Positions 559 to 22,734 of a stretch of 24,034 nucleotides of DNA are shown here, piece after piece. This DNA is from a virus. The translations under genes and the position numbers were made by a program. The stretch is from the IMG/VR virus record IMGVR_UViG_3300032240_000959, positions 1 through 24,034 of that record; one strand, given 5' to 3'. Within the stretch, counting starts at the first letter, position 1. The number at the start of each line of letters is the position of its first letter. The notes under the pieces are model-generated. The model was given only the letters and a program-made list of their open reading frames with translations. It was not told the DNA's origin and did not search any database.

Positions 559-3420
559 ATGGCCAAGCACGTTATCATTGAGAATTATACATTTAACCCG
601 TCAACCAGAACAATTACGGTAAATGGTAAAAATATTCGTAGAGAGCAGTTGTTGTTGATTACCAACACAACCTCTGGTACAGTTGTGTACAATTTTTCTG
701 ATCCATCTTTAGGAGCAACTAGTTACACAAATGCTGCCAACACAATCTCGGGTTTAGAAACAACTACTGTTATATTGAATTACAATACTTCTGCAATGGG
801 TTCTACCGATAAGTTGGCCATTCTAACAGAAGAATCTTATCAAGAAATGGTACCTGCTGAAGTATATCGTGACCCTGTGGACAAACTTCGTATTTCTTCT
901 CCTCAGGCATTGATTGATACAGACTTTGAATATGGTCCTCAACCTACCAAATGGGAATCAATTAATCTTTTGAACAATCGTCCTGGTGCTTTCTATGATC
1001 CAACTCAAGGTATTTCAAATATTTCTACTAGCGTAACATTTTCTGGTGCGGCTGGTGCATATCAAATTACCAATATTACTGCATCAGGTAAAGTAGTTAC
1101 TGTAGCAATTAACAATACAACAGGTATTACTGTTGGTACTCCTATTTTTGTACAAGGTACACTAGATTCAGGTAACGCAGACGGATGGTGGCTTGTTGAA
1201 TCTGTTTCAGCTGCTACAAACTTTACTTACACAGTAACAAATACTCCTGCAGCTACTCTATTTGATTCTAATAAATCAACTGTGTTTATTGGTGCTTTCT
1301 ATAGTGGCGCTGGTATACCAAGTTTGGGTACTTCTGGTGGTACAATTACTCTTAGTGGTACGGTTGCTACAGTAACAACAGCAAACTCTCACGGACTCCG
1401 TGTTGGTGATGGCATTTACGTTGTTGGTACTACTGGTGCTACAGGTACACTTAATAGTTCTTGGCTTGTTGCTAATACTCCTAACACCAACATATTTACA
1501 TTCTCTTGTGGTGCTACAGGAACAATTACTGGTCCAGCAAATGCCACAATTTATCCAAGACCATTAGGTTATGTACAACACAGGCCATTTGATGGCGGTG
1601 TTCAATTCTCTAACGTATCACCATATCATGGTTATCAAGTTGTTCGCCAAACTCGTAGACAATTCCGTTATCAATCAGGTAAAGGTATTCAATTCTCTAC
1701 TGGTTCTATTTTAAAACCATCGATATCAACAGATAACATAACAAGTTCTGGTACAACTATTACTGTAACAACTAAGTTTGCTCATGGTCTTGGTGCTAAC
1801 TCACAAATTTTAATTTCAGGTGCCACAGAAACCGCTTACAACGGATTGTTTACTGTGTCTGGTGCTAACACTCCATTACAATTTACATATACCGCCAACT
1901 CAGTACCTTCTGCTGCTACAGCAACAGGTTTCCCATTAAATGTTTCACCATATTCTTGGTATGGTGCTGCTAATCGTATTGGTATGTTTGATTCACAAAA
2001 CGGATTCTTCTTTGAATATGACGGACAAACGTTATATACCGTTAAACGTTCAAGTACAACTCAAATTTCTGGTGTAGTTTCAGTTGTTAATGCCAAAGGT
2101 GATGTGAATGGTACAAATACCAAATTTAGTTCACAATTAAAACCTGGTGATGCCATTGTTATTCGTGGACAATCTTATTTTGTGCAAACAATTGCATCAG
2201 ACACTTTAATGTACATTTATCCTGAATATCGTGGCGTTACTGCAGTTGCTTGTCAAGTTTCTAAAACAATTGATACCCGTGTGCCACAATCACAATGGAA
2301 TATTGATAAATGTGATGGTACTGGTCCTTCTTTATATAATGTAGATTTGACTAAAATGCAAATGTTCTATGCTGATTATAGTTGGTATGGTGCTGGTGCA
2401 ATTCGTTACGGATTTAAAAACAATCGTGGTGAAATTATTTACTGTCATCGTACACCAAATAACAACATTAATACTGAAGCGTACATGCGTTCAGGTAACT
2501 TACCTGCTCGTTATGAAACCAACACAATGCCAGTTACAACATATTTAACTGCTACATTGACTGCTGGCGCTACATCAATGACAGTTAATGATACAACATT
2601 ATTTCCTTCTGTAGGAGTATTAAATGTTACAGCTGCAACTGAAACTGGTGGTGCAATTGAATATATTTACTACACAGGTAAAACTGCAACAACATTTACT
2701 GGATTACAACGCAACTCAGCAAATACAACAGGTGTTGCTTTAGGTACAAGTACAGCAACAACATTTACCTATTCAGCAACCGCACCAGTTAAAGTTGAAT
2801 TATTTTCACCAGGTGCAGCAACAACAGTTAGCCATTGGGGTTCTTCTGTGATAATGGACGGCCGTTATGATGACGATAAATCATTTATTTTTAACTTTGG
2901 CCAAAATACTCAACAAGTATATCCAAGTCCAACAATACGTTATCCGGTGTTTAGTGTTCGTTTAGCACCCGCAATTGATAATGGTAATGCTGGTATTTTA
3001 GGACAACGTGAAATTATTAACCGTATGCAATTAGCTCCTGCTTCAATAGGTGTTTTTGCTTCTAATAATGCTATTCGTGCTGAATTGGTTTTAAATGGTC
3101 GTGTTTCTTCTGGAACATATGCACCAGTTGGAGGATCTTCTTTAGCACAATATGCTACTCATGGTCCTTCAGCAACCATTTATGGTGGTGAATCAATTTG
3201 GACCGGCTTTGTACCTAAAGATAATACAGATGCCACAGACTTAACTAGGTTGCGTGATATTGGTAACAGTATTTTGGGTGGCGGTACAACAAATGCTGTG
3301 TCAAATACATCAAGTCAAATTTATCCTGATGGTCCAGATATTTTAACTCTATGTATTACTCCATTAGGCGGTGGCGCCAACGTTGCCGCACGTTTGAGTT
3401 GGTCAGAGGCACAAGCTTAA
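559..3420 (+). CDS. Large virion structural protein, cyanophage T4-like type
   Basis: A 953-aa multidomain beta protein. Residues 104-133 (RDPVDKLRISSPQALIDTDF and the following EYGPQPTKWE) and 580-619 (WNIDKCDGTGPS, then LDLTK-like and YSWYGAGAIRYGF) match my recollection of conserved blocks in virion structural proteins of T4-like cyanophages. Between and beside them are at least three similar beta modules at about 168-235, 260-330 and 390-460. Each has a strand pair, then an HGL- or TGI-type turn, G-x-x-I-x-(V/I)-x-G, and an FTYT or FTFS strand. Another small module around 662-740 contains ATSMTVNDTTLFP and an EYIYYTG strand. AGGAG at 545-549 supports the ATG. The protein is most likely part of the baseplate, tail fibre or another surface structure; the specific T4 counterpart is not clear. 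Confidence 0.75.
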   Translation: MAKHVIIENYTFNPSTRTITVNGKNIRREQLLLITNTTSGTVVYNFSDPSLGATSYTNAANTISGLETTTVILNYNTSAMGSTDKLAILTEESYQEMVPAEVYRDPVDKLRISSPQALIDTDFEYGPQPTKWESINLLNNRPGAFYDPTQGISNISTSVTFSGAAGAYQITNITASGKVVTVAINNTTGITVGTPIFVQGTLDSGNADGWWLVESVSAATNFTYTVTNTPAATLFDSNKSTVFIGAFYSGAGIPSLGTSGGTITLSGTVATVTTANSHGLRVGDGIYVVGTTGATGTLNSSWLVANTPNTNIFTFSCGATGTITGPANATIYPRPLGYVQHRPFDGGVQFSNVSPYHGYQVVRQTRRQFRYQSGKGIQFSTGSILKPSISTDNITSSGTTITVTTKFAHGLGANSQILISGATETAYNGLFTVSGANTPLQFTYTANSVPSAATATGFPLNVSPYSWYGAANRIGMFDSQNGFFFEYDGQTLYTVKRSSTTQISGVVSVVNAKGDVNGTNTKFSSQLKPGDAIVIRGQSYFVQTIASDTLMYIYPEYRGVTAVACQVSKTIDTRVPQSQWNIDKCDGTGPSLYNVDLTKMQMFYADYSWYGAGAIRYGFKNNRGEIIYCHRTPNNNINTEAYMRSGNLPARYETNTMPVTTYLTATLTAGATSMTVNDTTLFPSVGVLNVTAATETGGAIEYIYYTGKTATTFTGLQRNSANTTGVALGTSTATTFTYSATAPVKVELFSPGAATTVSHWGSSVIMDGRYDDDKSFIFNFGQNTQQVYPSPTIRYPVFSVRLAPAIDNGNAGILGQREIINRMQLAPASIGVFASNNAIRAELVLNGRVSSGTYAPVGGSSLAQYATHGPSATIYGGESIWTGFVPKDNTDATDLTRLRDIGNSILGGGTTNAVSNTSSQIYPDGPDILTLCITPLGGGANVAARLSWSEAQA

Positions 3421-3430: not shown

Positions 3431-4396
3431 ATGTCCTCTCGGGATTATATAAGACACCTAGTATTAGCCAACACGGCACCCAATGGTGCCAGAGTTGGTG
3501 ATGAATATTTTGATCCAGTTGCCAATAAACTTTATAAAGTATTGGCAGTTAATGGAACAACTGTTACTAGTACAGAAATTTTAATTGCTGTTGGTGGTAA
3601 TACATACACAGGCAATTTAATAATTTCTGGATCATCCGCTGCAGGTAATGGTATTACTTTTGCTGACGGTACAAGACAAACTACGGCAGCTACTGGTACA
3701 GGTTCTTCTGGTTCTTCTGCTAATTTAATATCATTTACTACTGTTGCAGATACATTCACAGGTAATGGAAGTAAAACACAATTTACTTTGTCTGTTGTAC
3801 CAGATTCAAAAAATAGCACGTTTGTTTATTTGAATGGTGTATATCAAAACAAATCTACATACTCAGTAGTTGGTGCTAATGTTATATTTACCGGTATTGC
3901 TACCGCAAATGATACTATTGAAGTAACTACTGTTGCTGGTAGTGTTATGAACGTAAGTCCTTCTGGTTATTCAACAAGAATATATCAAGGTAACGGATCA
4001 ACTACTGCATTTACAATTAGTGCTGGTCAAACTGCAAACACCGTCATGGTGTTTAACAATGGTATTGGCCAATTCCCTGTTAGCGACTACACAGTAAGCG
4101 GAACAACACTAACATATCTTGTAGCACCACAGTCGGATGAAACGGTGCAGATTCGTGAAATGCCTATCAATCAATTGGTTGCAGTTACACAACCAAATTT
4201 GAGAAGATATACTGCCAATGGAGTTCAAACAACATTTACAGTAACAACAGGTCAAACAGCCAACTCAATGTTTGTATATGAGAATGGGGTATGTCAGATG
4301 CCTATTAATGATTACACAGTAAGTGGAACAACCTTGACGTTTACTACAGCACCAACTGCTGATAAAGTAATTCAAATTAGAGAAATGCCAGTTTAA
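3431..4396 (+). CDS. Tail-fibre protein with three tandem C-terminal beta modules
   Basis: A 321-aa protein. The N-terminal part (1-85) holds NTAPNGARVGDEYFDPVANK, typical of phage fibre N-terminal regions, and ITFADGTRQTTAA at 75-87, a common phage fibre motif. A Gly/Ser linker (88-98) leads to three repeats of about 62 aa at 106-169, 182-246 and 258-321. Each carries GNG-x-x-T-x-F-T, then (V/F)-(Y/F)-x-N-G-V, then Y-x-V-x-G-x-x-(L/V)-x-(F/Y). The last two are closest and both end in IQIREMP or VQIREMP. GGGAGG at 3421-3426 is the strongest ribosome site of the left half. The next gene starts nine bases after the stop. Fibre or adhesin role is inferred from the modules; receptor unknown. Confidence 0.75.
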   Translation: MSSRDYIRHLVLANTAPNGARVGDEYFDPVANKLYKVLAVNGTTVTSTEILIAVGGNTYTGNLIISGSSAAGNGITFADGTRQTTAATGTGSSGSSANLISFTTVADTFTGNGSKTQFTLSVVPDSKNSTFVYLNGVYQNKSTYSVVGANVIFTGIATANDTIEVTTVAGSVMNVSPSGYSTRIYQGNGSTTAFTISAGQTANTVMVFNNGIGQFPVSDYTVSGTTLTYLVAPQSDETVQIREMPINQLVAVTQPNLRRYTANGVQTTFTVTTGQTANSMFVYENGVCQMPINDYTVSGTTLTFTTAPTADKVIQIREMPV

Positions 4397-4405: not shown

Positions 4406-6097
4406 ATGCCATTTACACAAATAACAACCACAAATATTGCCAATGGCGCTGTTACTTTTGCACAGACTGCTGCTGGCGCTTTTACTTTAATACCAATCAT
4501 TACTACAATTCAAATTGCAGATTCTTCTTATAATGTTTTAGATGATACAGCAGCTAATACTACTGGTGGTTATGTTGTTATTACTGGAACAAATTTTGGA
4601 TCCAATTCACAAGTTATTATTGGTACAACTAACGCTACCAGTACAACATATGTTAATTCAACAACCATTCGTGCACAAGTACCTGCTCTGTCGGCGGCTT
4701 CATATCCCGTTTATGTTTTTGATAATACTAGTGGCGCTGTTGGAATTAAGCCTAATGGTTTAACATATAGTTCATTTCCAGCATGGAGTACAGGTGCAAC
4801 ATTAAGTAATCAGGTAGCCAATACTGCTTTTGGTGTTAACCTTAGTGCTACATCGGATTCGAATATAACATATTCCAATACTTCAGTATTACCTACAGGT
4901 ACTTCTTTATTAGCTAATGGATATTTTTCAGGTACAGTTACCATTGGTGTTCAAACCGCATACTCATTTGATGTTAAAGCTACCGATGTAGAATTACAAG
5001 ATGCTTCTAGAACATTTAGTGTAACGGTGACCGTTGCGCCGGCAAATTTGTGGGCATGGGGTGGCAATCCTAATGGCGGATTAGGACAAAATGATTTAGT
5101 CTATAGATCCAGTCCAGTACAAGTAGGATCAGCAAGTAATTGGAGTCTAGTGAGTGTTGCTAGTTATGCCACCATGGCCACCAAAACAAATGGTACTCTG
5201 TGGGCTTGGGGACGTAATACTTATGGTCAATTAGGACAAAATGATGGAGTTAATAGATCCAGTCCAGTTCAGATTGGTGCACTAACAAACTGGAATCTAG
5301 TGAGTTGTGGTTATTATAACATGGGTGCCATCAAAACTGATGGTACTCTGTGGGCATGGGGACGTAACGATAATGGCCAATTAGGACTCAATGATATAGC
5401 TAATAGATCCAGTCCAACACAAATAGGATCAGGCACCACTTGGAGTCAAGTGAGTGCAACGGGTGGAGGCTTCTGGTTGGCCACCAAAACTGATGGTACA
5501 TTATGGGCATGGGGTCAAAATAATTATGGCCAATTAGGACTTAATAATCAAGTTAATAGATCCAGTCCAGTTCAAGTAGGATCAGGAACCACTTGGAGTA
5601 AAGTGAGTGCTAGCCTTGGGACTGGAAATGGTTCAGCCATCAAAACTGATGGTACATTATGGACATGGGGTCAAGGTAATTATGGGCAAATAGGAATCAA
5701 TGATCTAACTTATAGATCCAGTCCAGTTCAAGTAGGATCAGGAACCACTTGGAGTCTGATAAGTGCCAGTAATTATTCATTCGCAGCTACTAAAACTGAT
5801 GGTACATTATGGACATGGGGACGGAATATTCAAGGTAATTTAGGACTCAATGATTCAGTTTGGAGATCCAGTCCAACACAGGTAGCAGGAACCACTTGGA
5901 GTAAAATAAGTCTTGGCCTATGGGAAAGCTCAGCCATTAAGACAAATGGTACTTTATGGACATGGGGATGGAATGTTTATGGCGCATCAGGACTCAATGA
6001 TCGAGTAAGTAGATCCAGTCCAGTACAAGTAGGATCAGCAACCAATTGGGCAAACACAAGTTGTGGTGGATTAGTCACCGTAGCCATCACAAATTAA
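4406..6097 (+). CDS. RCC1-repeat virion/adhesin protein, paralogue 1
   Basis: A 563-aa protein. Residues 1-29 form a short leader (TTTNIANGAVT) like phage fibre N-termini. Residues about 30-120 resemble an IPT/TIG immunoglobulin-like domain (GGYVVITGTNFGS, then STTIRAQVPA and YPVYV). Residues about 125-211 resemble a putative-Ig/cadherin-like domain (FPAWSTGATLSN, LPTGTSLLANGYFSGTV, DASRTFSVTV). From 214 to the end are seven RCC1-type repeats of about 50 aa with the framework LWxWGxNxxGQLGxND, RSSPVQVGS, W(S/N)xVS and (A/T)xKTDGT. Seven is the number needed to close an RCC1 propeller. AAGGA at 4395-4399 supports the start. The N-terminal halves of this protein and paralogue 4 (9626) are especially alike. 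There is no signal peptide. A surface-binding role is inferred. Confidence 0.8.
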   Translation: MPFTQITTTNIANGAVTFAQTAAGAFTLIPIITTIQIADSSYNVLDDTAANTTGGYVVITGTNFGSNSQVIIGTTNATSTTYVNSTTIRAQVPALSAASYPVYVFDNTSGAVGIKPNGLTYSSFPAWSTGATLSNQVANTAFGVNLSATSDSNITYSNTSVLPTGTSLLANGYFSGTVTIGVQTAYSFDVKATDVELQDASRTFSVTVTVAPANLWAWGGNPNGGLGQNDLVYRSSPVQVGSASNWSLVSVASYATMATKTNGTLWAWGRNTYGQLGQNDGVNRSSPVQIGALTNWNLVSCGYYNMGAIKTDGTLWAWGRNDNGQLGLNDIANRSSPTQIGSGTTWSQVSATGGGFWLATKTDGTLWAWGQNNYGQLGLNNQVNRSSPVQVGSGTTWSKVSASLGTGNGSAIKTDGTLWTWGQGNYGQIGINDLTYRSSPVQVGSGTTWSLISASNYSFAATKTDGTLWTWGRNIQGNLGLNDSVWRSSPTQVAGTTWSKISLGLWESSAIKTNGTLWTWGWNVYGASGLNDRVSRSSPVQVGSATNWANTSCGGLVTVAITN

Positions 6098-6098
6098 A

Positions 6099-6143
6099 AT
6101 GACCCAATATATTAAGAACTATAATATTGCAAACAAAAATTAA
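6099..6143 (+). repeat. Short ORF from conserved MTQYIKNYN start, copy B
   Basis: A 14-residue ORF reading MTQYIKNYNIANKN then stop. Its ATG lies one base after the stop of the preceding RCC1 gene, and its stop ends three bases before the ATG of the next one. The first 12 codons equal those of the gene at 11420 apart from one synonymous change. No ribosome site precedes it, so any translation would rely on reinitiation. It could relay ribosomes between the two genes or be a dead remnant. Confidence 0.6.
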
Positions 6144-6146
6144 TCC

Positions 6147-7832
6147 ATGGCAACTCAATTAATTGCAAATAATTTTACTTCAGGATCCATTACAGCTGAC
6201 AAACTTACTGTTGGTGCTTTAAATCCTGTCCTTACTTCTGTTGCTATCTGTGATGCATCTTATAATGTTCTAGATGATACCGCAGCCAATACTGGTGGTG
6301 GTTACATACAAGTTACTGGTACCAATTTTACAACCAATTCAGTTGTTGTTATTAATACAACCACATCAACTAGTACCACTTATGTAAACAATACAACACT
6401 CAGAGCTCAAGTACCAGCATTTGCAGCTGCAAGTTATCCTGTATATGTCATTGATACTTACGATGGTTCTACTGCCATTCGTTATAACGGAATTACTTTT
6501 AGTAATACTCCAATATGGGGAACAGGTACAACATTGAGTAATCAGGTAGCCAATACTGCCTTTGGTATTAATGTAAGTGCTAATTCTGATTCTTCTATAA
6601 CATATTCAAATACTACTGTGTTACCAACAGGTACCACATTGGCATCCAATGGATATTTTTCAGGTACAGTTACCATTGGTGTTCAAACAACATACAATTT
6701 TACTGTTAAAGCAAATGATGCTGAGAATCAGGATGCATCAAGAACATTTAGTGTGACGGTGACAATTTCTGGGCCAAACCTGTGGGCTTGGGGACGTAAT
6801 GATAGTGGCCAATTAGGACTAAATGATACAGCCTATAGATCCAGTCCAACACAAATAGGAACAGGAAGCAATTGGAGTTCGGTGGCTACTAATAATAACC
6901 AATTTAACAACGCAGCCATCAAAACTGATGGTACTCTGTGGACATGGGGACGTAATAACTTTGGGCACTTAGGACTCAGTGATATAGTTACTAGATCCAG
7001 TCCAACACAAGTAGGAGTATTAACCAATTGGAGTAACGTGAGTATGGGTCTCTATAACATCATAGCCACCAAAACTGATGGTACTTTATGGGCTTGGGGA
7101 TATAATGGTAATGGGCAATTAGGAGTTAGTGATTTAAACAATAGATCCAGTCCAGTACAAATAGGATCAGGTACTACTTGGAGTCTGATAAGTACTAATA
7201 ATTATACCAGCCTAGCCACCAAGACTGATGGTAGCTTATGGTCTTGGGGAGGTAATAATTATGGCACGTTAGGATTCAATGATCGAATTTATAGATCCAG
7301 TCCAACACAAGTAGCATCAGGAACCACTTGGAGTAAGTTTAGTGCGGGTCAAGCTAACGCCGTAGCCATCAAGACTGATGGCACATTGTGGGCTTGGGGA
7401 TTTGCTGCTTATGGTCAATTAGGAAACAATACCGGTGGACCCGCTAGATCCAGTCCAGTACAAATAGGATCAGGTACTACTTGGAGTCTGATAAGTACTA
7501 ATAATTATACCAGCCTAGCCACCAAGACTGATGGTACTCTATGGGTATGGGGAGCAAACCTTGGCGGCACATTAGGACTTGGTGATCGGGTTTATAGATC
7601 CAGTCCAACACAAGTAGGATCAGCAACGAATTGGAATCAGATCAGTATGGGTTATTATAATGCCGCAGCAATCAAGACTGATGGTACTTTATGGGTATGG
7701 GGAATTAATTATTATGGCCAATTAGGACAAAATAATGTAGTTTATAGATCCAGTCCAACACAAGTGGGCACAAATACGAATTGGAGTAAAGTGATTACTG
7801 GTGTTAACACCATAGCAATTACTACAAATTAA
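6147..7832 (+). CDS. RCC1-repeat virion/adhesin protein, paralogue 2
   Basis: A 561-aa member of the family with the same architecture: leader 1-28 (IANNFTSGSITADKL), TIG-like domain about 29-118, putative-Ig-like domain about 121-208, then seven RCC1 repeats from 211 to the end. The fifth repeat has an altered turn (GNNTGGPARSSP). Repeats 3-4 and 5-6 share a perfect 92-bp stretch, the clearest recent copying event in the window. No Shine-Dalgarno sequence precedes the ATG, which follows the stop of a 14-residue ORF by three bases; the start is chosen because its N-terminus aligns with paralogue 3. Position and domain makeup suggest a fibre or adhesin; no catalytic motif is seen. Confidence 0.8.
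   Translation: MATQLIANNFTSGSITADKLTVGALNPVLTSVAICDASYNVLDDTAANTGGGYIQVTGTNFTTNSVVVINTTTSTSTTYVNNTTLRAQVPAFAAASYPVYVIDTYDGSTAIRYNGITFSNTPIWGTGTTLSNQVANTAFGINVSANSDSSITYSNTTVLPTGTTLASNGYFSGTVTIGVQTTYNFTVKANDAENQDASRTFSVTVTISGPNLWAWGRNDSGQLGLNDTAYRSSPTQIGTGSNWSSVATNNNQFNNAAIKTDGTLWTWGRNNFGHLGLSDIVTRSSPTQVGVLTNWSNVSMGLYNIIATKTDGTLWAWGYNGNGQLGVSDLNNRSSPVQIGSGTTWSLISTNNYTSLATKTDGSLWSWGGNNYGTLGFNDRIYRSSPTQVASGTTWSKFSAGQANAVAIKTDGTLWAWGFAAYGQLGNNTGGPARSSPVQIGSGTTWSLISTNNYTSLATKTDGTLWVWGANLGGTLGLGDRVYRSSPTQVGSATNWNQISMGYYNAAAIKTDGTLWVWGINYYGQLGQNNVVYRSSPTQVGTNTNWSKVITGVNTIAITTN
7142..7233 (+). repeat. 92-bp perfect direct repeat, first copy
   Basis: This stretch is identical base for base to 7445-7536, 303 bases downstream, i.e. 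two RCC1 repeats away. It covers the RSSP word, the GSGTTWSLIS strand and the normally variable loop (STNNYTSLA). It ends within the KTDGT segment. Identity through the otherwise hypervariable loop indicates a recent intragenic duplication or conversion. Confidence 0.95.
7445..7536 (+). repeat. 92-bp perfect direct repeat, second copy
   Basis: Second copy of the 92-base unit at 7142-7233. The bases just before and after differ between copies (a versus c upstream, g versus c downstream), so these are the exact limits of identity. Confidence 0.95.
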
Positions 7833-7883
7833 TCCATAATTCAATTCAAAATGGTTTAACCTTTGATTAATAAATAAAACAAT

Positions 7884-9566
7884 ATGACAACACAGATAAC
7901 CGCAAACAACATCACCAATAATACCATCACTGCCACTCAGTTGGTTGCTGGTTCTTTATCTCCAAAAATTAGAACAATTTCTATCTGTGATTCTTCTTAT
8001 AATGTTTTAGATGATACAGCAGCTAACACTACTGGTGGTTACATTCAAATTACCGGTTCAACTTTTGGTGCCAATTCACAAGTTATCATTGGAACAAACA
8101 ATGCAACTTCAGTAACATATGTAAACACTTCAACAATCAGAGCTCAGGTACCAGCAGCAGCCGCTACAAGTTATCCTGTATATGTTATTGATACTGATAC
8201 TGGTGGTACTGCAATTAAAATTAATGGTTTAACACACAGTTCATTTCCAGCATGGAGTACCGGTGCAACATTAAGTAATCAGGTAGCTAATACTGCTTTT
8301 GGTGTTTCATTAAGTGCATCATCGGATTCTAATATAACATATTCAAATACTTCAGTATTACCAGCTGGTACCACATTGGCTGCTAATGGATATTTTTCAG
8401 GTACAGTTACCATTGGTGTTCAAACCGTATACTCATTTGATGTCAAAGCAAATGATGCTGAGAATCAGGATGCTTCTAGAACATTTAGTGTAACGGTGAC
8501 AGTATCAGCAACGGGATTATTTTCTTGGGGTGCCAATCAAGGCGGCGCTTTGGGACAAAATGATGTAACTCTTAGATCCAGTCCAACACAAATAGGATCA
8601 GGAACAACATGGTTATCAATATCTATGAATGAAAATACCACTTCAGCAGGTGTAAAAACCGATGGTACTTTATGGACATGGGGAGTTAATAGTCAAGGTC
8701 AATTAGGACTCAATGATAGAGCTAATAGATCCAGTCCAGTTCAAGTAGGATCAGGAACAACTTGGACATCCGTTGAAGTTTCATACCTTGCGGTATTTGC
8801 TATTAAAACCGATGGCACTTTATGGTCATGGGGACTTAATAGTTATGGCCAATTAGGAACCAGCAATATAGCTAATAGATCCAGTCCATCACAAGTAGGT
8901 GCATTGACAAATTGGTCACTTTTAACCACAGGACATTATAGTGCAGCAGCCGTCAAAACAGACGGTACTTTATGGTCATGGGGTCAAAATGCTTATGGCC
9001 AATTAGGACAAAATAATGTAGTTTATAGATCCAGTCCAACACAAGTAGCAGGCACAACTTGGAGTAAGCTTTCGTCTGGTATGCAACAATTTATTGCAAT
9101 AAAAACCGATGGTACATTGTGGACATGGGGACGGAATAGTCAAGGTCAATTAGGACTCAATGATATAGCTAATAGATCCAGTCCATCACAAGTAGGATCA
9201 GGAACAACATGGTCACTAATAGATAGTACTGGATCATACACTTTGAGTTCTTTTGCAATACAAAGTAATGGAACATTATGGGCATGGGGGCGTGGTAGTG
9301 AGGGACAATTAGGACTCAATAATCCAATTAATAGATCCAGTCCAACACAAGTAGGATCAGGAACAACTTGGTTAACAACAGCTGCAGGTTATTTTACTGC
9401 AGGTGCAATCAAAACTGATGGTACTTTATGGGAATGGGGTAATGGAATTTTAGGAAACAATGATGCAGTTGTTAGATCCAGTCCAGTACAAATAGGAACA
9501 CAAACAACTTGGAAAAAAATAACTAAAAGCTTTAGTGATACTATGGCTTATGCTGCATTACCATGA
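7884..9566 (+). CDS. RCC1-repeat virion/adhesin protein, paralogue 3
   Basis: A 560-aa family member: leader 1-28 (TANNITNNTITATQL), TIG-like domain about 29-118, putative-Ig-like domain about 122-207, then seven RCC1 repeats from about 209. The first repeat is atypical (GLFSWGANQGGALG). The seventh is degenerate: WEWGNGILGNND lacks several residues of the usual turn, though RSSPVQIG and the following strand remain. A 46-bp stretch in the Ig-coding part (8382-8427) is identical to 4913-4958 in paralogue 1. There is no ribosome site in front of the ATG; a TAATAAATA string sits just upstream but is too close to the start to serve as its promoter. Its TGA stop overlaps the ATG of short ORF copy C. 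Confidence 0.8.
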   Translation: MTTQITANNITNNTITATQLVAGSLSPKIRTISICDSSYNVLDDTAANTTGGYIQITGSTFGANSQVIIGTNNATSVTYVNTSTIRAQVPAAAATSYPVYVIDTDTGGTAIKINGLTHSSFPAWSTGATLSNQVANTAFGVSLSASSDSNITYSNTSVLPAGTTLAANGYFSGTVTIGVQTVYSFDVKANDAENQDASRTFSVTVTVSATGLFSWGANQGGALGQNDVTLRSSPTQIGSGTTWLSISMNENTTSAGVKTDGTLWTWGVNSQGQLGLNDRANRSSPVQVGSGTTWTSVEVSYLAVFAIKTDGTLWSWGLNSYGQLGTSNIANRSSPSQVGALTNWSLLTTGHYSAAAVKTDGTLWSWGQNAYGQLGQNNVVYRSSPTQVAGTTWSKLSSGMQQFIAIKTDGTLWTWGRNSQGQLGLNDIANRSSPSQVGSGTTWSLIDSTGSYTLSSFAIQSNGTLWAWGRGSEGQLGLNNPINRSSPTQVGSGTTWLTTAAGYFTAGAIKTDGTLWEWGNGILGNNDAVVRSSPVQIGTQTTWKKITKSFSDTMAYAALP

Positions 9567-9619
9567 CCCAATATATCAAGAATTATAATATTGCAAACAA
9601 CTCACTCATTAGTAAATAA
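9563..9619 (+). repeat. Short ORF from conserved MTQYIKNYN start, copy C
   Basis: An 18-residue ORF, the longest partial copy. Residues 1-16 (MTQYIKNYNIANNSLI) equal the N-terminus of the RCC1 protein at 11420, with only three base differences in 48, all synonymous. It then runs Ser-Lys-stop. Its ATG overlaps the TGA of the preceding RCC1 gene as ATGA, a classic reinitiation arrangement, and it ends six bases before the next ATG at 9626. Confidence 0.65.
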
Positions 9620-9625
9620 ACCACT

Positions 9626-11416
9626 ATGGCAAAAATATCATCAAATAATATTCTAACTGGCACAATTACTTCAGATAAGCTTGATGCATCTGTTGTAAGT
9701 GGTTTAACAAATGCAAATAACGCTAACGTGATTGCAACAACTGCTTCTACTTTAGCGGCTGCAGCCTTTGTTACTGCAAATACCAATGCGGCAATTTTAG
9801 CCAATACTGCACCAATCATTACTACAATTCAAATTGCTGATTCTTCTTATAATGTTTTAGATGACACAGCAGCCAATACTACTGGTGGTTATGTTGTTAT
9901 TACAGGTTCAGGATTTGTTTCAACGCCTGCAATTTTATTTGGTACAACATCAGCAACTGCAGTAACATATGTAAGTTCAACAACATTGCGTGTACAAGTA
10001 CCAGCATTAAGTGCGGCTTCATATCCTGTGTATGTAGTAAACACTAATGGCGGTACTGCAATTAAAATAAACGGTTTGACTACTAGTTCATTTCCAGCAT
10101 GGAGTACCGGTGCAACATTAAGTAATCAAGCAGCTAATACTGCTTTTGGTGTTAACCTTAGTGCTACATCGGATTCCGGTATTACATATTCTAATACTAC
10201 ATCATTACCTGCTGGTACTTCTTTATTAGCTAATGGTTATTTTTCTGGCACCGTAACAATTGGTGTTCAGACCACATATACATTTAATGTTAAAGCTACC
10301 GATGTAGAATTACAAGATGCATCAAGAACATTTAGTGTAACGGTGACAGTAGGTCCACCACCAGGAATATGGACATCGGGAAAAAATGATTTTGGCCAAT
10401 TAGGACAAAATGATCGAGTTTATAGATCCAGTCCAACTCAAGTAGGATCAGGAACCACATGGAGTCAGATAAGTACTAGCCAAAACACCACAATGGCCAC
10501 CAAAACTGATGGTACTTTATGGATATGGGGAAATAATCTTAAAGGTAATTTAGGACTTAATGATCAAGGTATTAGTAGATCCAGTCCAACACAAGTAGGA
10601 GTGTTAACCAATTGGAGTTTGGTGAGTGTTGGTAATTATAGTGTTGCAGCCATCAAGACTGATGGTACTTTATGGAGATGGGGACAGAATAATTATGGCC
10701 AATTAGGACTAAATGATCTAATTGATAGATCCAGTCCAGTACAAGTAGGAGTGTTAACCAATTGGAGTTTGGTGAGTGTTAGCGGTTATATAACTACAGC
10801 CATTAAGACAAATGGTACTTTATGGGCATGGGGAGAAAATACCTTCGGTTCATTAGGACTCAATGATATACTTTTTAGATCCAGTCCAGTACAAGTGGGA
10901 TCAGGAACCACATGGAGTAAAATGACTAATAATCGCACTGCCTTAGCCACCAAAACTGATGGTACTTTGTGGGCATGGGGATGGAATGCTCGTGGTCAAT
11001 GCGGACTTGGCGATGTAACTAATAGATCCAGTCCAGTTCAAGTAGGATCAGGAACCACTTGGAGTCAAATAAGTAATGGTGCTGGTGGTACCGGCAATAT
11101 AGCCACCAAGACAGATGGTACTTTATGGGCATGGGGTTCTAATTTTGGGGCCGAATTAGGACTCAATGATACAGTCTATAGATCCAGTCCAGTACAAGTA
11201 GGATCAGGAACTACCTGGAATCTGATAAGTACTAGCCAACGGAACACCATGGCCACCAAGACAGATGGTACTCTATGGACCTGGGGAACTAATAGTAATG
11301 GCGGATTAGGACAAAATAGTATAGTTAATAGATCCAGTCCAGTACAAGTGGGAGCAGCAAGTAATTGGAGTTTGATAAGTATGGGTTCATATGGTTTTAT
11401 AGCCAAAACAACATAA
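9626..11416 (+). CDS. RCC1-repeat virion/adhesin protein, paralogue 4
   Basis: A 596-aa family member with a longer N-terminal region: after NNILTGTITSDKLD comes an Ala/Asn-rich, probably helical segment (about 25-62) ending in ANTAP, as in paralogue 5. The TIG-like domain (about 63-153) is nearly identical to that of paralogue 1 in DNA as well as protein. The putative-Ig domain follows (about 157-243), then seven RCC1 repeats from about 246. The first repeat reads IWTSGKNDFGQLG, so the usual second Trp of the WxWG motif is missing. A 40-bp perfect repeat (10591-10630 and 10741-10780) lies exactly one 150-bp unit apart. No Shine-Dalgarno sequence is visible; the start follows short ORF copy C by six bases. 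Confidence 0.8.
   Translation: MAKISSNNILTGTITSDKLDASVVSGLTNANNANVIATTASTLAAAAFVTANTNAAILANTAPIITTIQIADSSYNVLDDTAANTTGGYVVITGSGFVSTPAILFGTTSATAVTYVSSTTLRVQVPALSAASYPVYVVNTNGGTAIKINGLTTSSFPAWSTGATLSNQAANTAFGVNLSATSDSGITYSNTTSLPAGTSLLANGYFSGTVTIGVQTTYTFNVKATDVELQDASRTFSVTVTVGPPPGIWTSGKNDFGQLGQNDRVYRSSPTQVGSGTTWSQISTSQNTTMATKTDGTLWIWGNNLKGNLGLNDQGISRSSPTQVGVLTNWSLVSVGNYSVAAIKTDGTLWRWGQNNYGQLGLNDLIDRSSPVQVGVLTNWSLVSVSGYITTAIKTNGTLWAWGENTFGSLGLNDILFRSSPVQVGSGTTWSKMTNNRTALATKTDGTLWAWGWNARGQCGLGDVTNRSSPVQVGSGTTWSQISNGAGGTGNIATKTDGTLWAWGSNFGAELGLNDTVYRSSPVQVGSGTTWNLISTSQRNTMATKTDGTLWTWGTNSNGGLGQNSIVNRSSPVQVGAASNWSLISMGSYGFIAKTT
10591..10630 (+). repeat. 40-bp perfect repeat, copies one blade apart
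   Basis: Identical to 10741-10780, at an offset of exactly 150 bases, i.e. one RCC1 blade. It encodes VGVLTNWSLVSV. Two bases differ just upstream, then the shared RSSP word resumes. Suggests recent copying between neighbouring blades. Confidence 0.9.
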
Positions 11417-11419
11417 TTC

Positions 11420-13231
11420 ATGACTCAATATATTAAGAACTATAATATTGCAAACAACTCACTCATTTCAGTTGTTTTTAATTCTGATATTGCAAACAAT
11501 ATCAATGCCGCTTCTATATCTTCTGATGCGGCAAATACTGCCAATGTTTCCGCACAAGCTGTTAATACATCTGTTACACTACAAACTCAACAAATTGCTA
11601 ATACAGCACCAACAATTAATGTAATTTCAATCACAGATTCATCTTATAATGTTCTAGATGATACAGCAGCTAACACTACTGGTGCATACTTACAAATTAC
11701 TGGATCCAATTTTCAATCTGGTGCCATTGTTATGGTGGGTTCTAGTAATACCGCATTAACAACCACATTAGTAAACTCAAATACATTAAGAGCTCAGATA
11801 CCGGCCATTACATCAGGAACTTATCCTGTGTATGTAGTGAACACTAATGGTGGTACGGGTATTCGTGTTAATGGATTAACTACTAGTTCATTCCCAGCAT
11901 GGTCTACAGGATCAACATTAAGTAATCAAATAGCCAATACTGCATTCTCGGTATCACTAAGTGCATCATCGGATTCCGGTATTACATATTCAAATACTTC
12001 AGTATTGCCTACTGGTACTTCTTTGTTAGCCAATGGCTATTTTTCAGGTACAGTTACCATTGGTGTTCAAACAACTTATTCATTCAATGTCAAAGCTACC
12101 GATGCTGAGAATCAGGATGCTACCAGAACGTTTAGTGTGACGGTGACAGTTGGTATAACGCCTGGATTGTATATGTGGGGAAGGAATGATCGTGGCCAAT
12201 TAGGACAAAATGATGTAGTTTATAGATCCAGTCCAGTTCAAGTAGGATCAGGAACCACTTGGAGTCAGATAAGTACCTCTTCTCTTAGTGCCGCAGCTAT
12301 CAAAACAGATGGTACATTATGGACTTGGGGAAGAGGTATTGAAGGTCAATTAGGACGAAATGATCAAGTTGATAGATCCAGTCCAACACAAATAGGAGTA
12401 TTAACTAATTGGAGTTCGGCAAGTGCTGGTACATTTAACATCATAGCCATCAAAACAAATGGCACGCTGTGGGTATTGGGGGGAGCTAATTTTCGTGGCC
12501 AACAAGGACTAAATGATCAAGGAAATTACAGATCCAGTCCAACACAAATAGGAGCATTAACCAATTGGAGTCAAGTGGCAATTAATCCCGATAATGGTAA
12601 TTGTATGGTCATAGCGAGAAAAACAGATGGTACTTTATGGACATGGGGATATAATGGTACTGGTAATTTAGGACAAAATAATTTAACTTATAGATCCAGT
12701 CCAGTACAAGTAGGAACAGGAACTACTTGGAGTCAGGTGAGTGTTGGCAGATTTAACGCCGCAGCCACTAAAACAGATGGTACACTATGGATATGGAGTA
12801 ATAATTCTAATGGCCAATTAGGACAAAATGATAGAATTGATAGATCCAGTCCCGTACAGATAGGATCAGGAACCACTTGGAGTCAGGTGAGTGTTGGTAT
12901 GTATAGCATCATGGCCACCAAAACTGATGGTACTTTATGGACATGGGGATTTAATAACCTTGGCCAATTAGGACTCAATGATCTAGTTAATAGGTCCAGT
13001 CCAGTACAAATAGGAGTATTAACCAATTGGAGTTTGGTGAGTAGTTCCCGATACATAACCACAGCCAAAAAAACAGATGGTACTTTATGGACATGGGGAT
13101 TTAATAACCTTGGTCAACAAGGATTAAATGATCGAGGAAATTACAGATCCAGTCCGACACAAATAGGATCAGCAACCAATTGGAGTCAGGTGAGTGCTGG
13201 TGAATCTGTCATGATAGCCATAGCAACATAA
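11420..13231 (+). CDS. RCC1-repeat virion/adhesin protein, paralogue 5
   Basis: A 603-aa protein and the only family member in the window whose N-terminus is the full MTQYIKNYNIANNSLI sequence that appears truncated elsewhere. An Asn/Ala/Ser-rich probable helical segment (about 17-63) ends in ANTAP, then come the TIG-like domain (about 64-155), putative-Ig-like domain (about 160-246) and seven RCC1 repeats. The third repeat is altered (WVLGGANFRGQQG) and the fifth has WIWSNNSNGQLG, losing the usual WG glycine. It is the only paralogue with silent changes in the RSSP DNA word. A 38-bp perfect repeat (12926-12963 and 13076-13113) joins the last two blades. The ATG lies three bases after the preceding stop, with no ribosome site. 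Confidence 0.8.
   Translation: MTQYIKNYNIANNSLISVVFNSDIANNINAASISSDAANTANVSAQAVNTSVTLQTQQIANTAPTINVISITDSSYNVLDDTAANTTGAYLQITGSNFQSGAIVMVGSSNTALTTTLVNSNTLRAQIPAITSGTYPVYVVNTNGGTGIRVNGLTTSSFPAWSTGSTLSNQIANTAFSVSLSASSDSGITYSNTSVLPTGTSLLANGYFSGTVTIGVQTTYSFNVKATDAENQDATRTFSVTVTVGITPGLYMWGRNDRGQLGQNDVVYRSSPVQVGSGTTWSQISTSSLSAAAIKTDGTLWTWGRGIEGQLGRNDQVDRSSPTQIGVLTNWSSASAGTFNIIAIKTNGTLWVLGGANFRGQQGLNDQGNYRSSPTQIGALTNWSQVAINPDNGNCMVIARKTDGTLWTWGYNGTGNLGQNNLTYRSSPVQVGTGTTWSQVSVGRFNAAATKTDGTLWIWSNNSNGQLGQNDRIDRSSPVQIGSGTTWSQVSVGMYSIMATKTDGTLWTWGFNNLGQLGLNDLVNRSSPVQIGVLTNWSLVSSSRYITTAKKTDGTLWTWGFNNLGQQGLNDRGNYRSSPTQIGSATNWSQVSAGESVMIAIAT
12926..12963 (+). repeat. 38-bp perfect repeat, copies one blade apart
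   Basis: Identical to 13076-13113, offset 150 bases. It encodes DGTLWTWGFNNLG including the usually variable residues after WG, so blades 6 and 7 of this gene recently shared sequence. Confidence 0.9.
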
Positions 13232-13264: not shown

Positions 13265-13282
13265 TATTGTGAATTGATTATT

Positions 13283-13290
13283 AAGAAAGG
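13283..13290 (+). promoter_or_regulatory. Ribosome binding site fixing a GTG start
   Basis: AAGAAAGG lies seven bases before GTG at 13298. This supports GTG rather than the in-frame upstream TTG at 13274, which has no such site and would put eight extra residues before the sulfotransferase start MKKVYFLSG. Confidence 0.7.
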
Positions 13291-13297
13291 TTTTACC

Positions 13298-15058
13298 GTG
13301 AAAAAAGTATATTTTTTATCAGGACTTCCTAGGTCCGGTTCAACAGTATTGGCTGCTATTCTCAGTCAACATCCAGATTTACACACATCGGCCACATCAG
13401 GTCTTTTAGACATGCTGGTTGGTACACTTCGTGCATGGGCTGATTCTATGAATACCAAAGCGCAGAAGGACCAAAAAGCGGCAGAAGAAGAAATTCAACG
13501 AGTTCTTAAAAATATTTGTAATACCAAATATGCCGATGTAGATAAGCCAGTCATTCTAGACAAAGCCCGTGGATGGGCTGATGATACGAATATGCGTACC
13601 ATGGCCAAAGTTCTTGAACACAAGCCAAAAATTATTGCCACAGTCCGTAAAGTGGAAGATTGTGCGGCTTCATTTGTTCGTATTGCCAAACCTGAAAATC
13701 TTGATAAGTTTTTGGTAGAAGATGAACTAATTGGTCATCTCAAAGAATCGTATCAAACATTAGAAAAAGGATATTCATTTGCACCAGAATGTTTTCTGAT
13801 TGTTGACTATGATGATTTGATGAATGATCCACAAAAAGAATTAAATCGAATACATGAGTTTTTAGAATTACCACCATTTGATTATGACTTGAATGCAATT
13901 GATGGTACCAATTTACAAGAACGTGATGAAGAAGTTTGGTTGGTTCCTGGCCTGCACGATGTTCAACCAAAATTAGGTTACCAACACAAACAAGATTCTA
14001 AAGATGTTTTACAACACCGTTATTGGGAGTTTGTACAACCAAGATTTTGGTTAGGAGAGAAAGCGGCCAATAAACCCATTCACGACCTTGATATGCAGTT
14101 AGCTGCTGGTCTAATGGGTAACTTCAAAGAAGGTTTACGATTAGCCAATAAGATTGAACAAGAAGAACCTTGGAATAACCGAGCAGCTTTCAATCGTGGT
14201 TGGTATAAAATGTATGAAGGTAAACTTCTAGAAGGTGAAAAACTGTTATTTCGTGGTAGACTTGAAAAGGTGTTTGGTAATGAACCACCCAAGTCACCGA
14301 TGCCAATGTGGGATGGTAAATCTAAAGGTACCGTGTTATTAAATTTAGAAGGCGGATTAGGCGACCAGATACACGGAGTTCGTTACGCAAGGGACATTGC
14401 TAAGATTGCTGGAGAAGTGATTGTGGCGTGTTCTGGTTCGTTGGCGACCATGTTTCGTGGTGTAGAAGGAGTTGTTGCTGTGTGTCAAACAGATGCCACA
14501 TATGGTATTGTTCATGATTTTTGGGCACCATCCATGTCTACCATTCAGTTACTCGAATATGAGTATAAAGATATTTCAGGTAAACCATATATAAATAAAC
14601 CACTAGTAGAACCACACAAAGGTCTCAGAATTGGTTTAAGATGGCAAGGCAATCCACAGTTCGAACATGAACAACATCGGATATTCCCACCAACAAAACT
14701 ATTTGATGTTTTAGATGATGTGGATGCAGAGTTCATTTCTCTACAAAGAGATGAAGGTTCTCAATACAAACCTTATTGGGTAAAAGAAGTACCATTAGGT
14801 CATTGGGAAGAAACAAGATTGGCTTTGGCTAGTTGTGATTTAATTATCACATCTTGTACCTCTGTAGCACATCTTGCCGGATCCATGGGAATTCCTACAT
14901 GGATTGTGGTGCCAGTTTTACCATATTATCTGTGGGCTCCTCCAGGAAATACCACAGTTTGGTATGATTCTGTAAAGTTGTATAGACAAGAAGTATTTGG
15001 AGATTGGTCTACTCCATTTAATCACATTAAAAACGATTTACAAAATTTTAAAAAGTAA
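13298..15058 (+). CDS. Sulfotransferase fused to TPR/GT9-like glycosyltransferase
   Basis: A 586-aa fusion. Residues 1-220 are a PAPS-dependent sulfotransferase: MKKVYFLSGLPRSGST carries the 5'-phosphosulfate loop (9-16), and VRKVEDCAASFVR near 116-128 fits the 3'-phosphate site with its Arg and Ser. Residues about 270-330 look like one TPR-like helical pair (AAFNRGWYKMYEGKLLEGEK). Residues about 340-564 match the C-terminal domain of TPR-linked, GT9/heptosyltransferase-like enzymes: LNLEGGLGDQIHGVRYA, GLRWQGNP, SCTSVAHLAGSMGIPTW and WAPPGNTTVWYDSVKLYRQ. It would transfer sulfate from PAPS and a sugar from a nucleotide sugar, acceptors unknown. The start is GTG after AAGAAAGG. It opens the glycan cassette directly after the RCC1 array. 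Natural two-enzyme fusion versus misassembly cannot be fully excluded, but the reading frame is clean. Confidence 0.85.
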   Translation: MKKVYFLSGLPRSGSTVLAAILSQHPDLHTSATSGLLDMLVGTLRAWADSMNTKAQKDQKAAEEEIQRVLKNICNTKYADVDKPVILDKARGWADDTNMRTMAKVLEHKPKIIATVRKVEDCAASFVRIAKPENLDKFLVEDELIGHLKESYQTLEKGYSFAPECFLIVDYDDLMNDPQKELNRIHEFLELPPFDYDLNAIDGTNLQERDEEVWLVPGLHDVQPKLGYQHKQDSKDVLQHRYWEFVQPRFWLGEKAANKPIHDLDMQLAAGLMGNFKEGLRLANKIEQEEPWNNRAAFNRGWYKMYEGKLLEGEKLLFRGRLEKVFGNEPPKSPMPMWDGKSKGTVLLNLEGGLGDQIHGVRYARDIAKIAGEVIVACSGSLATMFRGVEGVVAVCQTDATYGIVHDFWAPSMSTIQLLEYEYKDISGKPYINKPLVEPHKGLRIGLRWQGNPQFEHEQHRIFPPTKLFDVLDDVDAEFISLQRDEGSQYKPYWVKEVPLGHWEETRLALASCDLIITSCTSVAHLAGSMGIPTWIVVPVLPYYLWAPPGNTTVWYDSVKLYRQEVFGDWSTPFNHIKNDLQNFKK

Positions 15059-15517: not shown

Positions 15518-16237
15518 ATGAATTCTTTGTTTTGTTCTTATAATATGGATGTAGATAAGGCCTACATCATTCGAGTTAAAGATAATAAAAAATCTGAAGA
15601 TGTAGCCTTACGATGTGCTGAATCATGTAAAAAAATAGAAATGCCTTTTGAATATTGGGATGCTTACGATGGTTACTCACATCGTATTAAAGAACCTGAA
15701 CATTCCAAAAATAGTTCTGTAATGAAAATGATTAAAGTTACAGACCATTATATGACTAGAGGTGAAGTTGCTTGTGCATTGTCCCATATTTCATTGTGGG
15801 CTAAATGTGTTGAACAAGACCAACCATTGGTAATTTTAGAACATGATGCAGTAATGGTACAACCATATCTCAAACACGCAGTATTTAATTCAATTGCATA
15901 TCTAGGTAATAATGAGCAGGTCAATGGTGGTTGGCCAATTCTACCAACACCTACACATGCTTCAGAAGGTCCAAATTATCATTTTATTTGTAGGGCTCAT
16001 GCGTATGCAATTGATCCTGCTGTAGCAAAAAATATGATTGCTCATGTAATTAAATTTGGTCTTACTGCACCACTAGATATTATTGTTCGTGCTGATATAT
16101 TTCCAATTCATCAAATGGGTGTTTATGCCTATGATGTTAAAGAAAAAGATGAAGAAACCGGTGAGTTAAAAACAACCATACTTGGTAGACCTTTGAGTGG
16201 TAGAACAACTGAACGTAATGATAGGTTAGAGAAATGA
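15518..16237 (+). CDS. GT25-like glycosyltransferase
   Basis: A 239-aa protein resembling glycosyltransferase family 25 (LPS-biosynthesis type). It has YIIRVKDN near the N-terminus (16-23), a WDAYDG segment (47-52), and TRGEVACALSHISLWAKCVE (80-99) followed by LVILEHDAVM (104-113), which corresponds to the family's LILEDDV acidic motif. The middle acidic residue is His here (EHD), so activity or metal use may differ. HAYAIDPAVAKNMI (residues 166-179) matches the later family region. The start at 15518 has a weak GAAAG site; an alternative ATG at 15545 would remove nine residues. The gene ends in ATGA overlap with the methyltransferase. The acceptor and donor sugar are unknown. Confidence 0.75.
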   Translation: MNSLFCSYNMDVDKAYIIRVKDNKKSEDVALRCAESCKKIEMPFEYWDAYDGYSHRIKEPEHSKNSSVMKMIKVTDHYMTRGEVACALSHISLWAKCVEQDQPLVILEHDAVMVQPYLKHAVFNSIAYLGNNEQVNGGWPILPTPTHASEGPNYHFICRAHAYAIDPAVAKNMIAHVIKFGLTAPLDIIVRADIFPIHQMGVYAYDVKEKDEETGELKTTILGRPLSGRTTERNDRLEK

Positions 16238-16833
16238 AATATACTGTAATGTTCCATGAGTTTACGCAAAGAAGTATACAACAATTTATTGGCATGTATG
16301 GTTCACCAAAGACTGTAATTGAGATTGGTTGTTTTGAAGGACACACCACATTTGGTTTAACTGAGATGATGGTACAATCCAATTCAAATTACAAGCACTA
16401 TGCAATTGATCCATATGATATGTCTGATGATTTACCATTAGATGTTTTAAATGAAGCCGGTCAGTTGTTTATGTCCAATTTGAAAGAATTCAAATACAAA
16501 GATAATGTAGAGTTTATTCACGACACATCTTGGAATGGATTATTAAAACTACTACATCGTGGTGTCAAAGCAGATTTAATCTATATTGATGGTGACCACA
16601 GAGCAGAAACGGTACTAGAAGATTTGGTTTTGAGTTTTAATTTGATTGATGTTGGTGGAGTTATTCTTTGTGATGACTGTGTGTCATGGAAACACCAAGA
16701 TAAAGACAAACGGTTCAATCTTCAATCTTCACCAAAATTAGCCGTTGATAATTTTATTCAATGTAATTGGGATAAAGTGGAAGTATTAACACTTAACAAT
16801 GGTTATCAAACTGCTTTTAGAAAACTAAAATGA
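16234..16833 (+). CDS. Class I SAM-dependent methyltransferase
   Basis: A 199-aa protein with a Rossmann-type methyltransferase core: motif I VIEIGCFEGHTT (28-39), the acidic end of the second strand in YAIDPYD (57-62), and DLIYIDGDHRAETVLEDL (114-131) followed by GGVILCDDC (141-149). This layout matches the Methyltransf_24-type family often found in sugar or surface-polysaccharide clusters. Its ATG overlaps the stop of the GT25-like gene as ATGA, and its own stop overlaps the next start the same way, so the three are translationally coupled. The substrate cannot be told; a sugar of the same glycan or a protein side chain are both possible. Confidence 0.8.
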   Translation: MKYTVMFHEFTQRSIQQFIGMYGSPKTVIEIGCFEGHTTFGLTEMMVQSNSNYKHYAIDPYDMSDDLPLDVLNEAGQLFMSNLKEFKYKDNVEFIHDTSWNGLLKLLHRGVKADLIYIDGDHRAETVLEDLVLSFNLIDVGGVILCDDCVSWKHQDKDKRFNLQSSPKLAVDNFIQCNWDKVEVLTLNNGYQTAFRKLK

Positions 16834-18601: not shown

Positions 18602-18603
18602 AT

Positions 18604-20434: not shown

Positions 20435-20435
20435 C

Positions 20436-22318: not shown

Positions 22319-22734
22319 ACAATTTTGAAAAATCTATGGCAGAAGTATTTGATGTAACACCTACAGTAGTTGAAGAAAAGAAAAAAGAAATTTTACCTTC
22401 TGTTAAAGATGACAAAGAACAAGAACTTCAACAAGATTTAACTGATGCCTATGAACAGTCTAAAGAAAATCTACAAGGTATTATTGACCAAGGTAAAGAA
22501 GCCATGGGAGAAATACTAGAGATTGCCAAGGCCGGTCAGCACCCAAGAGCATTCGAAGTATATGGAACTTTACTTAAAAATATGGTAGATGCCAACAAAG
22601 AACTTCTTGCCATTCAAAAACAAATTCGTGAGATGGAAGGAATCAAAAAAGATTCTGCTGCCACAAATATTGACAAAGCCATTTTTATTGGTTCAACTGC
22701 TGAGTTAAACAAACTCATTAAAGGCAAAGAGTAA
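22315..22734 (+). CDS. 16: gp16 terminase small subunit
   Basis: A 139-aa, highly charged and mostly helical protein in the T4 gene 16 position. Residues 35-60 are acidic coiled-coil-like, followed by AKAGQHPRAFEVYGTLLKNM (71-90) and VDANKELLAIQKQIREMEG, the conserved core of T4-like small terminases. It regulates the large subunit during DNA packaging. The ATG overlaps the gp15 stop, and the stop shares one base with the gp17 start. A typical length for cyanophage-type gp16 and slightly shorter than T4's. Confidence 0.88.
   Translation: MNNFEKSMAEVFDVTPTVVEEKKKEILPSVKDDKEQELQQDLTDAYEQSKENLQGIIDQGKEAMGEILEIAKAGQHPRAFEVYGTLLKNMVDANKELLAIQKQIREMEGIKKDSAATNIDKAIFIGSTAELNKLIKGKE

Follow-up and report, generated by a model that had tools for sequence, protein, structure and literature searches.

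The window analysed in this study, the whole 24,034-base IMG/VR virus record IMGVR_UViG_3300032240_000959, is probably a fragment of a genome and carries a tandem array of five genes (positions 4406-13231), each encoding a protein with a TIG domain, an Ig domain and seven repeats of the RCC1 type. We consider it probable, at roughly two in three (0.66), that the products are virion-associated and most probably tail-borne adhesins, which evolve in a manner resembling that of the HNWD proteins (het-d/het-e) of Podospora anserina. This idea fits, since it agrees with the position of the locus, with a swap of domains in related viruses and with the presence of one variable face on the propeller. 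In the mechanism that we propose, a short gene-specific N-terminus would dock each protein on the particle, the TIG and Ig domains would form a stalk, and the closed propeller of seven RCC1 blades would serve as an exchangeable C-terminal binding head. Ligands on the host surface, probably polysaccharide, would be contacted by the face that loops 1-2 and 3-4 form. In the evolution of the family, whole genes would be duplicated and lost, blades would be exchanged and homogenised within an array, and diversifying selection would act on the residues of the face, with folding restoring seven blades in each head. From the evidence below we infer that the proteins are present in the virion and bind ligands, and the use of several receptors is plausible.

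Architecture and predicted fold of the five proteins

The sequence-only reading of this DNA had described five tandem genes with TIG, Ig and seven RCC1 repeats each, and the open reading frames (ORFs), the Pfam searches and the repeat counts confirmed this description. The Pfam RCC1 family matched all five proteins in tandem repeats of about 50 residues (E-values from 1e-52 to 1e-59). Each protein also scored above the cut-off of PF25390, a model of RCC1-like propellers. Repeats anchored on the RSSP motif numbered seven per gene and 35 across the five ORFs, with a spacing of 47-54 residues, and 33 of the 35 exceeded the RCC1 cut-off in the profile search of the record. Matches above the Pfam cut-off were obtained to TIG for genes 1, 4 and 5; for the Ig domain He_PIG, genes 2, 3 and 5 passed and gene 1 fell marginally short; the remaining TIG and Ig assignments are based on the alignment of the paralogues and on predicted strands. 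In the alignment, the paralogues were 63-66% identical to gene 1. The architecture shared by the five genes is far beyond chance.

AlphaFold2 was run on genes 1 and 3, with alignments of 51 and 34 sequences, respectively, taken from the window and from the fetched loci. The models had a mean predicted local distance difference test (pLDDT) score of 91 for gene 1 and 88 for gene 3, and in each of them the RCC1 part was composed of 28 strands (7x4). Comparison of the gene 1 model with known structures by Foldseek and VIA-align gave an end-to-end match to the RLD2 domain of HERC2 (PDB 7q40; Z 53.3, 1.5 A over 351 residues) and a match to BLIP-II with Z 30. The closed seven-bladed propeller expected from the sequence was thus borne out for the two proteins modelled. 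Seven is the blade number expected of the RCC1 fold, so that seven blades by themselves are unsurprising. The RCC1 domains of HERC2, RPGR, UVR8 and BLIP-II (PDB 7q40, 4jhn, 4d9s, 1jtd) have this fold in common with the window proteins; they are, however, binding modules of cells or secreted ones, their blades have diverged, and the phage stalk is absent.

Blade number and blade divergence

To the counts in the window we added those in viral relatives, which gave 242 distinct complete viral RCC1 proteins, including the five from the window, collected from two viral-contig scans with different seeds, from loci fetched by synteny and from one fetched by protein (loci are designated here by an L and a number). 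In this sample, which contains related sequences and was retrieved with queries of seven repeats, a blade number of seven or a multiple of seven was kept in ~98% of the proteins. Direct counts of repeat matches gave seven in 218 proteins, 14 in four and 21 in six. Ten further proteins, with 8, 20, 27 or 37 matches, came to 7, 21, 28 or 35 once split or missed repeats had been joined by eye; the values of 37 and 20 were resolved on inspection, and 27 was taken as 28 by span only. The genuine exceptions were proteins of L212 (~19 repeats), L302 (six) and L260 (five), and one further protein, from L321, was assigned neither to the multiples of seven nor to the exceptions. Among cultured phages, S-SRM01 had proteins of 6, 7 and 7 repeats, its gp335 having lost exactly one blade, BUCT-ZZ01 had one of 14, and the marine virus AG-345-E08 had three of seven. 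A scan of bacterial homologues in genomes, meant as a control for blade number, returned one fragment only.

These counts led us to reject free variation of the blade number, apart from the few genuine exceptions. As to the claim of a constant seven, the part that stands is that the blade number does not vary freely in relatives; the word constant is too strong, as proteins of 5, 6, 14, 21 and 35 repeats exist. Seven blades are strongly favoured, not absolute. In a published survey of highly repetitive propellers amplified from single blades, the RCC1/BLIP-II group ranks third in size among those of recent amplification and includes a few viral members (PMC9218822). The blade numbers in that survey scatter around the number preferred by the family, in contrast to the near-uniform adherence of the viral RCC1 set to multiples of seven.

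Several proteins with unusual repeat numbers deserve separate mention. The ~19-repeat protein (L212, 10688-13624) adjoins proteins of 21 and 7 repeats, and short RCC1 proteins were found at L246 12773-13807 (S-SRM01 gp335, six repeats), L302 3111-4109 (six) and L260 1437-2360 (five). In L092 (13980-19346) and L138 (2513-7861) a single ORF directly after a virion protein of the PHROG 5838 type encodes 35 RCC1 repeats (5x7). We considered the derivation of the five window genes from such a protein, or their fusion into it, and rejected it. The shared total of 35 is probably a coincidence: for none of the 57 full-length blades of L092 and L138 was a window blade seen as the reported nearest neighbour, and the neighbours belonged mainly to the other locus of the pair.

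The blades of the window had been described as nearly identical in DNA, which was rejected by the comparison. Blades of one gene had a mean identity of 68% and blades of different genes one of 67% (range 51-85%), 84% was reached by just 2 of 595 blade pairs, and the exact runs common to two blades had a median length of 16 nucleotides (nt) and a maximum of 85 nt. Some misassembly of the array is conceivable, but at this divergence a collapse of repeats is unlikely. The 12 bases coding for RSSP were nearly fixed inside some arrays and different between phages: AGATCCAGTCCA in 32 of 35 blades of the window, CGTTCATCACCA in 19 of 23 in L235 and CGCTCCAGCCCT in all 13 of 13 in L089. The nearest relative of a blade lay in its own array for 40/40 blades in L235, 35/35 in L095, 21/21 in L089 and 26/35 in the window, and thus the arrays were probably homogenised or amplified separately. 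L235, L095 and L089 still have seven blades per gene, or 21 in three propellers. That arrays with a probably separate homogenisation or amplification remain at seven is the best support for selection for a closed propeller, and it puts the claim of blade constancy in a stronger form than the one originally proposed for the window. The youngest-looking array was that of L089 (9145-14649), in which three genes hold 21 blades that are near-identical save for a few codons of the NNC type (N, any base).

The variable face and the exchange of heads

The four strands of each blade alternate in direction, so that loops 1-2 and 3-4 share a face of the propeller, opposite to that of loops 2-3 and 4-1. 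With the strand limits taken from the AlphaFold model of gene 1, the mean residue entropy in the window was 2.03 bits at loops 1-2 and 3-4 versus 0.81 bits at loops 2-3 and 4-1, and higher entropy at loops 1-2 and 3-4 was found in all eight of the eight arrays examined (permutation p 0.0001-0.015). Codon usage at the variable positions was peculiar. In L089, four codons in a near-invariant framework used 7-10 residues each, with C as the third base in 81-100% of cases. In the window, codons 25 and 27 of the blade alignment (model positions 20 and 22) ended in A in 33/35 blades and in T in 34/35 blades, respectively, with the first two bases fully mixed. Third bases were frozen at several codons that used 10-13 residues. 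This uniformity was above the expectation from codon usage in both the window and L089, and for the NNA codon at 33/35 none of 1000 simulations was as uniform; the test avoids bias from the choice of positions and assumes the codon usage of the contig. By a counting method, the ratio of nonsynonymous diversity at the variable codons (pN) to synonymous diversity in the framework (pS) was 1.5 in the window, 2.2 in L089, 1.4 in L235 and 1.7 in L231, in favour of diversification. We infer that selection is the cause of the diversity of the face, which offers specific residues for receptor-binding tests.

The NNC codons of L089 hinted at a diversity-generating retroelement. A simple version of such a mechanism was excluded by the constant adenines between the variable codons (AAC, ACC and ATC, each in 21/21 blades), and no reverse transcriptase was present among the annotated genes of the 24-kb window, for which no dedicated test was made.

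By analogy, the closest described process is that of the HNWD WD40 proteins, where diversifying selection acts on one face, at a small number of sites in each repeat, the selected loops being d-a and b-c (PMC1805685). As is proposed for the arrays described here, the repeats belong to a propeller family and are traded within and between genes, with diversifying positions on one face. The HNWD proteins are, however, WD40 proteins of fungal NOD-like receptors (NLRs) with an unstable repeat number, whereas the phage arrays are RCC1 proteins, probably of the virion, held at seven blades. If the comparison holds, repeat diversification of the HNWD kind, known from fungal allorecognition, would extend to probable phage adhesins.

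An exchange of the head was seen in relatives. The protein of L177 at 10131-12722 was 76% identical to the RCC1 protein of L227 (9209-10921) over residues 1-215, which comprise the N-terminus, TIG and Ig; beyond them, three LamG/ConA-lectin domains replace the propeller in L177, at the same site before gp13. In L091, the flanks of which were 86-88% identical to the window at the nucleotide level, a LamG protein and other unnamed proteins occupy the place of the RCC1 genes. In the Pseudomonas phages PollyC and SeaP3, RCC1 was found on a protein at the position of the T7 fibre, with a sub-threshold match to the T7 tail-fibre N-domain (E 7e-5). With the detection of an RCC1-like protein in GAP32 virions (see below), these cases speak for an exchangeable binding head on a virion adhesin. 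The window array itself lies in a structural block, with the PHROG 5838 protein and a tail-fibre-like ORF upstream and gp13-gp17 downstream.

Several points weigh against the adhesin reading and against diversifying selection as a part of it. The ratio of pN to pS is inflated, as its seven variable codons were selected for their variability in these very data; it exceeded 1 only in the least saturated arrays and was ~1 in older ones. The RCC1 trees were too poorly resolved to display concerted evolution directly. In the gene 1 model, the N-terminal ~30 residues had low predicted confidence and contained no recognised attachment domain. Finally, the authors of the work on phAPEC6, a Rak2-like phage, propose a DNA-ordering role for its RCC1 proteins (PMC7247149).

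A rival explanation is a neutral array of recent duplicates, in which the blade number is held at seven by constraint and the loops vary simply for want of it. Loops are usually the least constrained parts of a protein, and in older arrays pN of the loop codons was close to pS. However, the variation is restricted to a single face; codon usage does not account for the uniform third bases at the variable codons of the window and L089, where all four letters occur in the first two positions; and relaxed constraint predicts a pN at or below about pS, versus the observed values of 1.4 to 2.2 times pS. Thus, we regard neutrality as a rather unlikely explanation.

An action of the RCC1 proteins on DNA or chromatin-like structures, in the capsid or in the cell, would agree with the phAPEC6 proposal and with PHROGs, where RCC1 proteins are classed as DNA metabolism. 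This label, however, derives from the fold, from which the name 'chromosome condensation' is inherited too, and the TIG-Ig stalk, the exchange of the head for LamG domains, the fusion to a fibre N-domain of the T7 type and hypervariability of a single face do not suit a conserved internal role on DNA, which makes this explanation very improbable. The results argue against reading 'regulator of chromosome condensation' as a DNA function in phage annotation.

Blocking or shielding would likewise be served by multiple copies whose faces differ, if the proteins act as decoys or surface coats, or on the host envelope after infection (e.g. in superinfection exclusion), rather than as receptor-binding heads; glycosyltransferase and sulfotransferase genes do follow the array. 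Against this, a signal peptide was neither seen by eye nor predicted, the genes lie in a structural block, and swaps of the head with lectin domains on a stalk are typical of fibres, so that we find such roles distinctly improbable. Within the adhesin reading, it is possible, at somewhat less than even odds, that the five propellers constitute a recognition repertoire, in which blades are traded, one face diversifies and folding filters the products to seven blades; this would provide several interchangeable heads that differ in specificity and are perhaps modified by the sulfotransferase.

Gene turnover, known phage systems and neighbouring genes

Between the tail-fibre-like gene on the left and the sulfotransferase gene on the right, the number of RCC1 genes was five in the window, three in L172 and one each in L177 and L227. 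In viral RCC1 arrays the number of genes thus varies while the blade number stays at multiples of seven. Two relics of a 5' end of the gene 5 type were found in the window (Table 1). The first reads MTQYIKNYNIANKN and is followed by a stop; the second overlaps the stop codon of gene 3 and is itself ended by a stop. In L172, a gene with the N-terminus of gene 5 stands directly after a gene of the gene 1 type, which matches the position of the first relic, and this relic marks a gene lost between genes 1 and 2. In a tree of the N-terminus and TIG, gene 5 paired with L172 8256-9806 (support 100/100) and gene 4 with L172 9812-11620 (support 98/99). The propellers of these pairs did not group with each other; their identity to the L172 partner was 52% and 56%, versus 54-61% and 55-61% to the other propellers of the window. 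The relics, together with orthology of the N-termini in the absence of grouping of the propellers, indicate that genes were lost as well as gained, and that the histories of stalk and head are separate. For hetero-oligomerisation, another suggestion of the sequence-only reading, the distinct N-termini give no more than a hint; counterparts of three of them are present in L172.

Earlier publications describe phages with RCC1 genes in tandem, one detection in virions and the amplification of RCC1 propellers from single blades (PMC5259590, PMC7247149, PMC9218822). Neighbouring RCC1-type genes number 13 in phage 121Q, 6 in PBECO4 and 11 in phAPEC6 (PMC5259590, PMC7247149), and the RCC1-like protein gp1 of GAP32 was detected in virions by mass spectrometry (PMC5259590). 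These Rak2-like jumbo phages resemble the window in having several adjoining RCC1 genes in a T4-related genome. Their proteins, however, consist of RCC1 only, are ~380 residues long and are too diverged for counting of blades, whereas in the window the products combine a stalk of TIG and Ig with blades of strong periodicity, and the genes belong to a tail/neck cassette adjoining glycan genes. In cyanophage S-SRM01 the RCC1 genes likewise lie beside a long-tail-fibre gene, followed by sulfotransferase and glycan genes. They are scattered, however, instead of forming one tandem block, with one gene short of exactly one blade, and a scan of one of the proteins found no TIG-Ig stalk. For the rule of multiples of seven, the variable face or the head swap in phage RCC1 proteins, a limited search, with subscription literature outside it, found no paper.

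Table 1. Coordinates of the array, the relics and the neighbouring genes in the window.
Feature	Position	Strand	Description
Virion structural protein (PHROG 5838)	559..3420	+	Left border of the variable cassette; kept in 79 loci
Short protein with PHROG tail-fibre matches and DUF4183	3431..4396	+	Directly upstream of the array
RCC1 adhesin gene 1 (putative)	4406..6097	+	563 aa; N-terminus 1-30, TIG ~31-121, Ig ~122-212, propeller 213-563 (nt 5042-6094); based on ORF, Pfam, seven repeats, AlphaFold, HERC2 RLD2 match
Relic 1, 5' end of gene 5 type	6099..6136	+	Matches the start of gene 5 (first 38 bases) at 37/38 positions
RCC1 adhesin gene 2 (putative)	6147..7832	+	561 aa; propeller from ~nt 6774
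RCC1 adhesin gene 3 (putative)	7884..9566	+	560 aa; propeller from ~nt 8511
Relic 2, 5' end of gene 5 type	9563..9610	+	35/38 identical over 9563-9600; alignment to 9610
RCC1 adhesin gene 4 (putative)	9626..11416	+	596 aa; propeller from ~nt 10361
RCC1 adhesin gene 5 (putative)	11420..13231	+	603 aa; propeller from ~nt 12161
Sulfotransferase	13274..15058	+	Long C-terminal extension; downstream of gene 5
Glycan/sulfate module	15518..19437	+	GT25, methyltransferase, GT2, UDP-galactopyranose mutase, APS-kinase-like/NMN-adenylyltransferase-like
gp13, gp14, gp15, gp16, gp17	19661..24032	+	Neck, tail-sheath stabiliser and terminase of T4-like type; border the cassette on the right

The T4-like context proposed earlier was corroborated by the homologues of gp13 (neck) and gp14-gp17 (Table 1), and for the terminase the closest cultured relatives were Synechococcus myoviruses, at 58% identity. 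An independent contig (L009) was 99.1% identical to the window over 12861-24034; thus a separate assembly confirms the 3' end of gene 5 and all the sequence that follows it. No tRNA was found in the window, and a megablast search of the array DNA against cultured phages gave no match.

The order of the glycan/sulfate module is kept in L172 and L177. A sulfotransferase gene lay at most 300 bp 3' of an RCC1 gene at 26/60 and 26/64 informative loci in two samples; among 114 RCC1-negative loci with a length of 10 kb or more, 7 contained one at any position (Fisher p <1e-8, in a test that ignores relatedness and in which the control loci are other genome regions). Its product may act on the adhesin or on glycans of the host. 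Outside the window, a sulfotransferase gene directly after an RCC1 gene was also seen in L089, L188, L196, L203 and L227. The product of 18598-19440 joins an N-terminal half resembling adenosine 5'-phosphosulfate (APS) kinase to a C-terminal half resembling nicotinamide mononucleotide (NMN) adenylyltransferase (PHROG 10255), and its gene travels with the sulfotransferase; it might or might not supply the sulfate donor of the sulfotransferase. Between the glycan module and gp13, a small membrane protein with DUF2061 is encoded at 19433-19636, which is also present in L009, L177, L193, L220 and L240.

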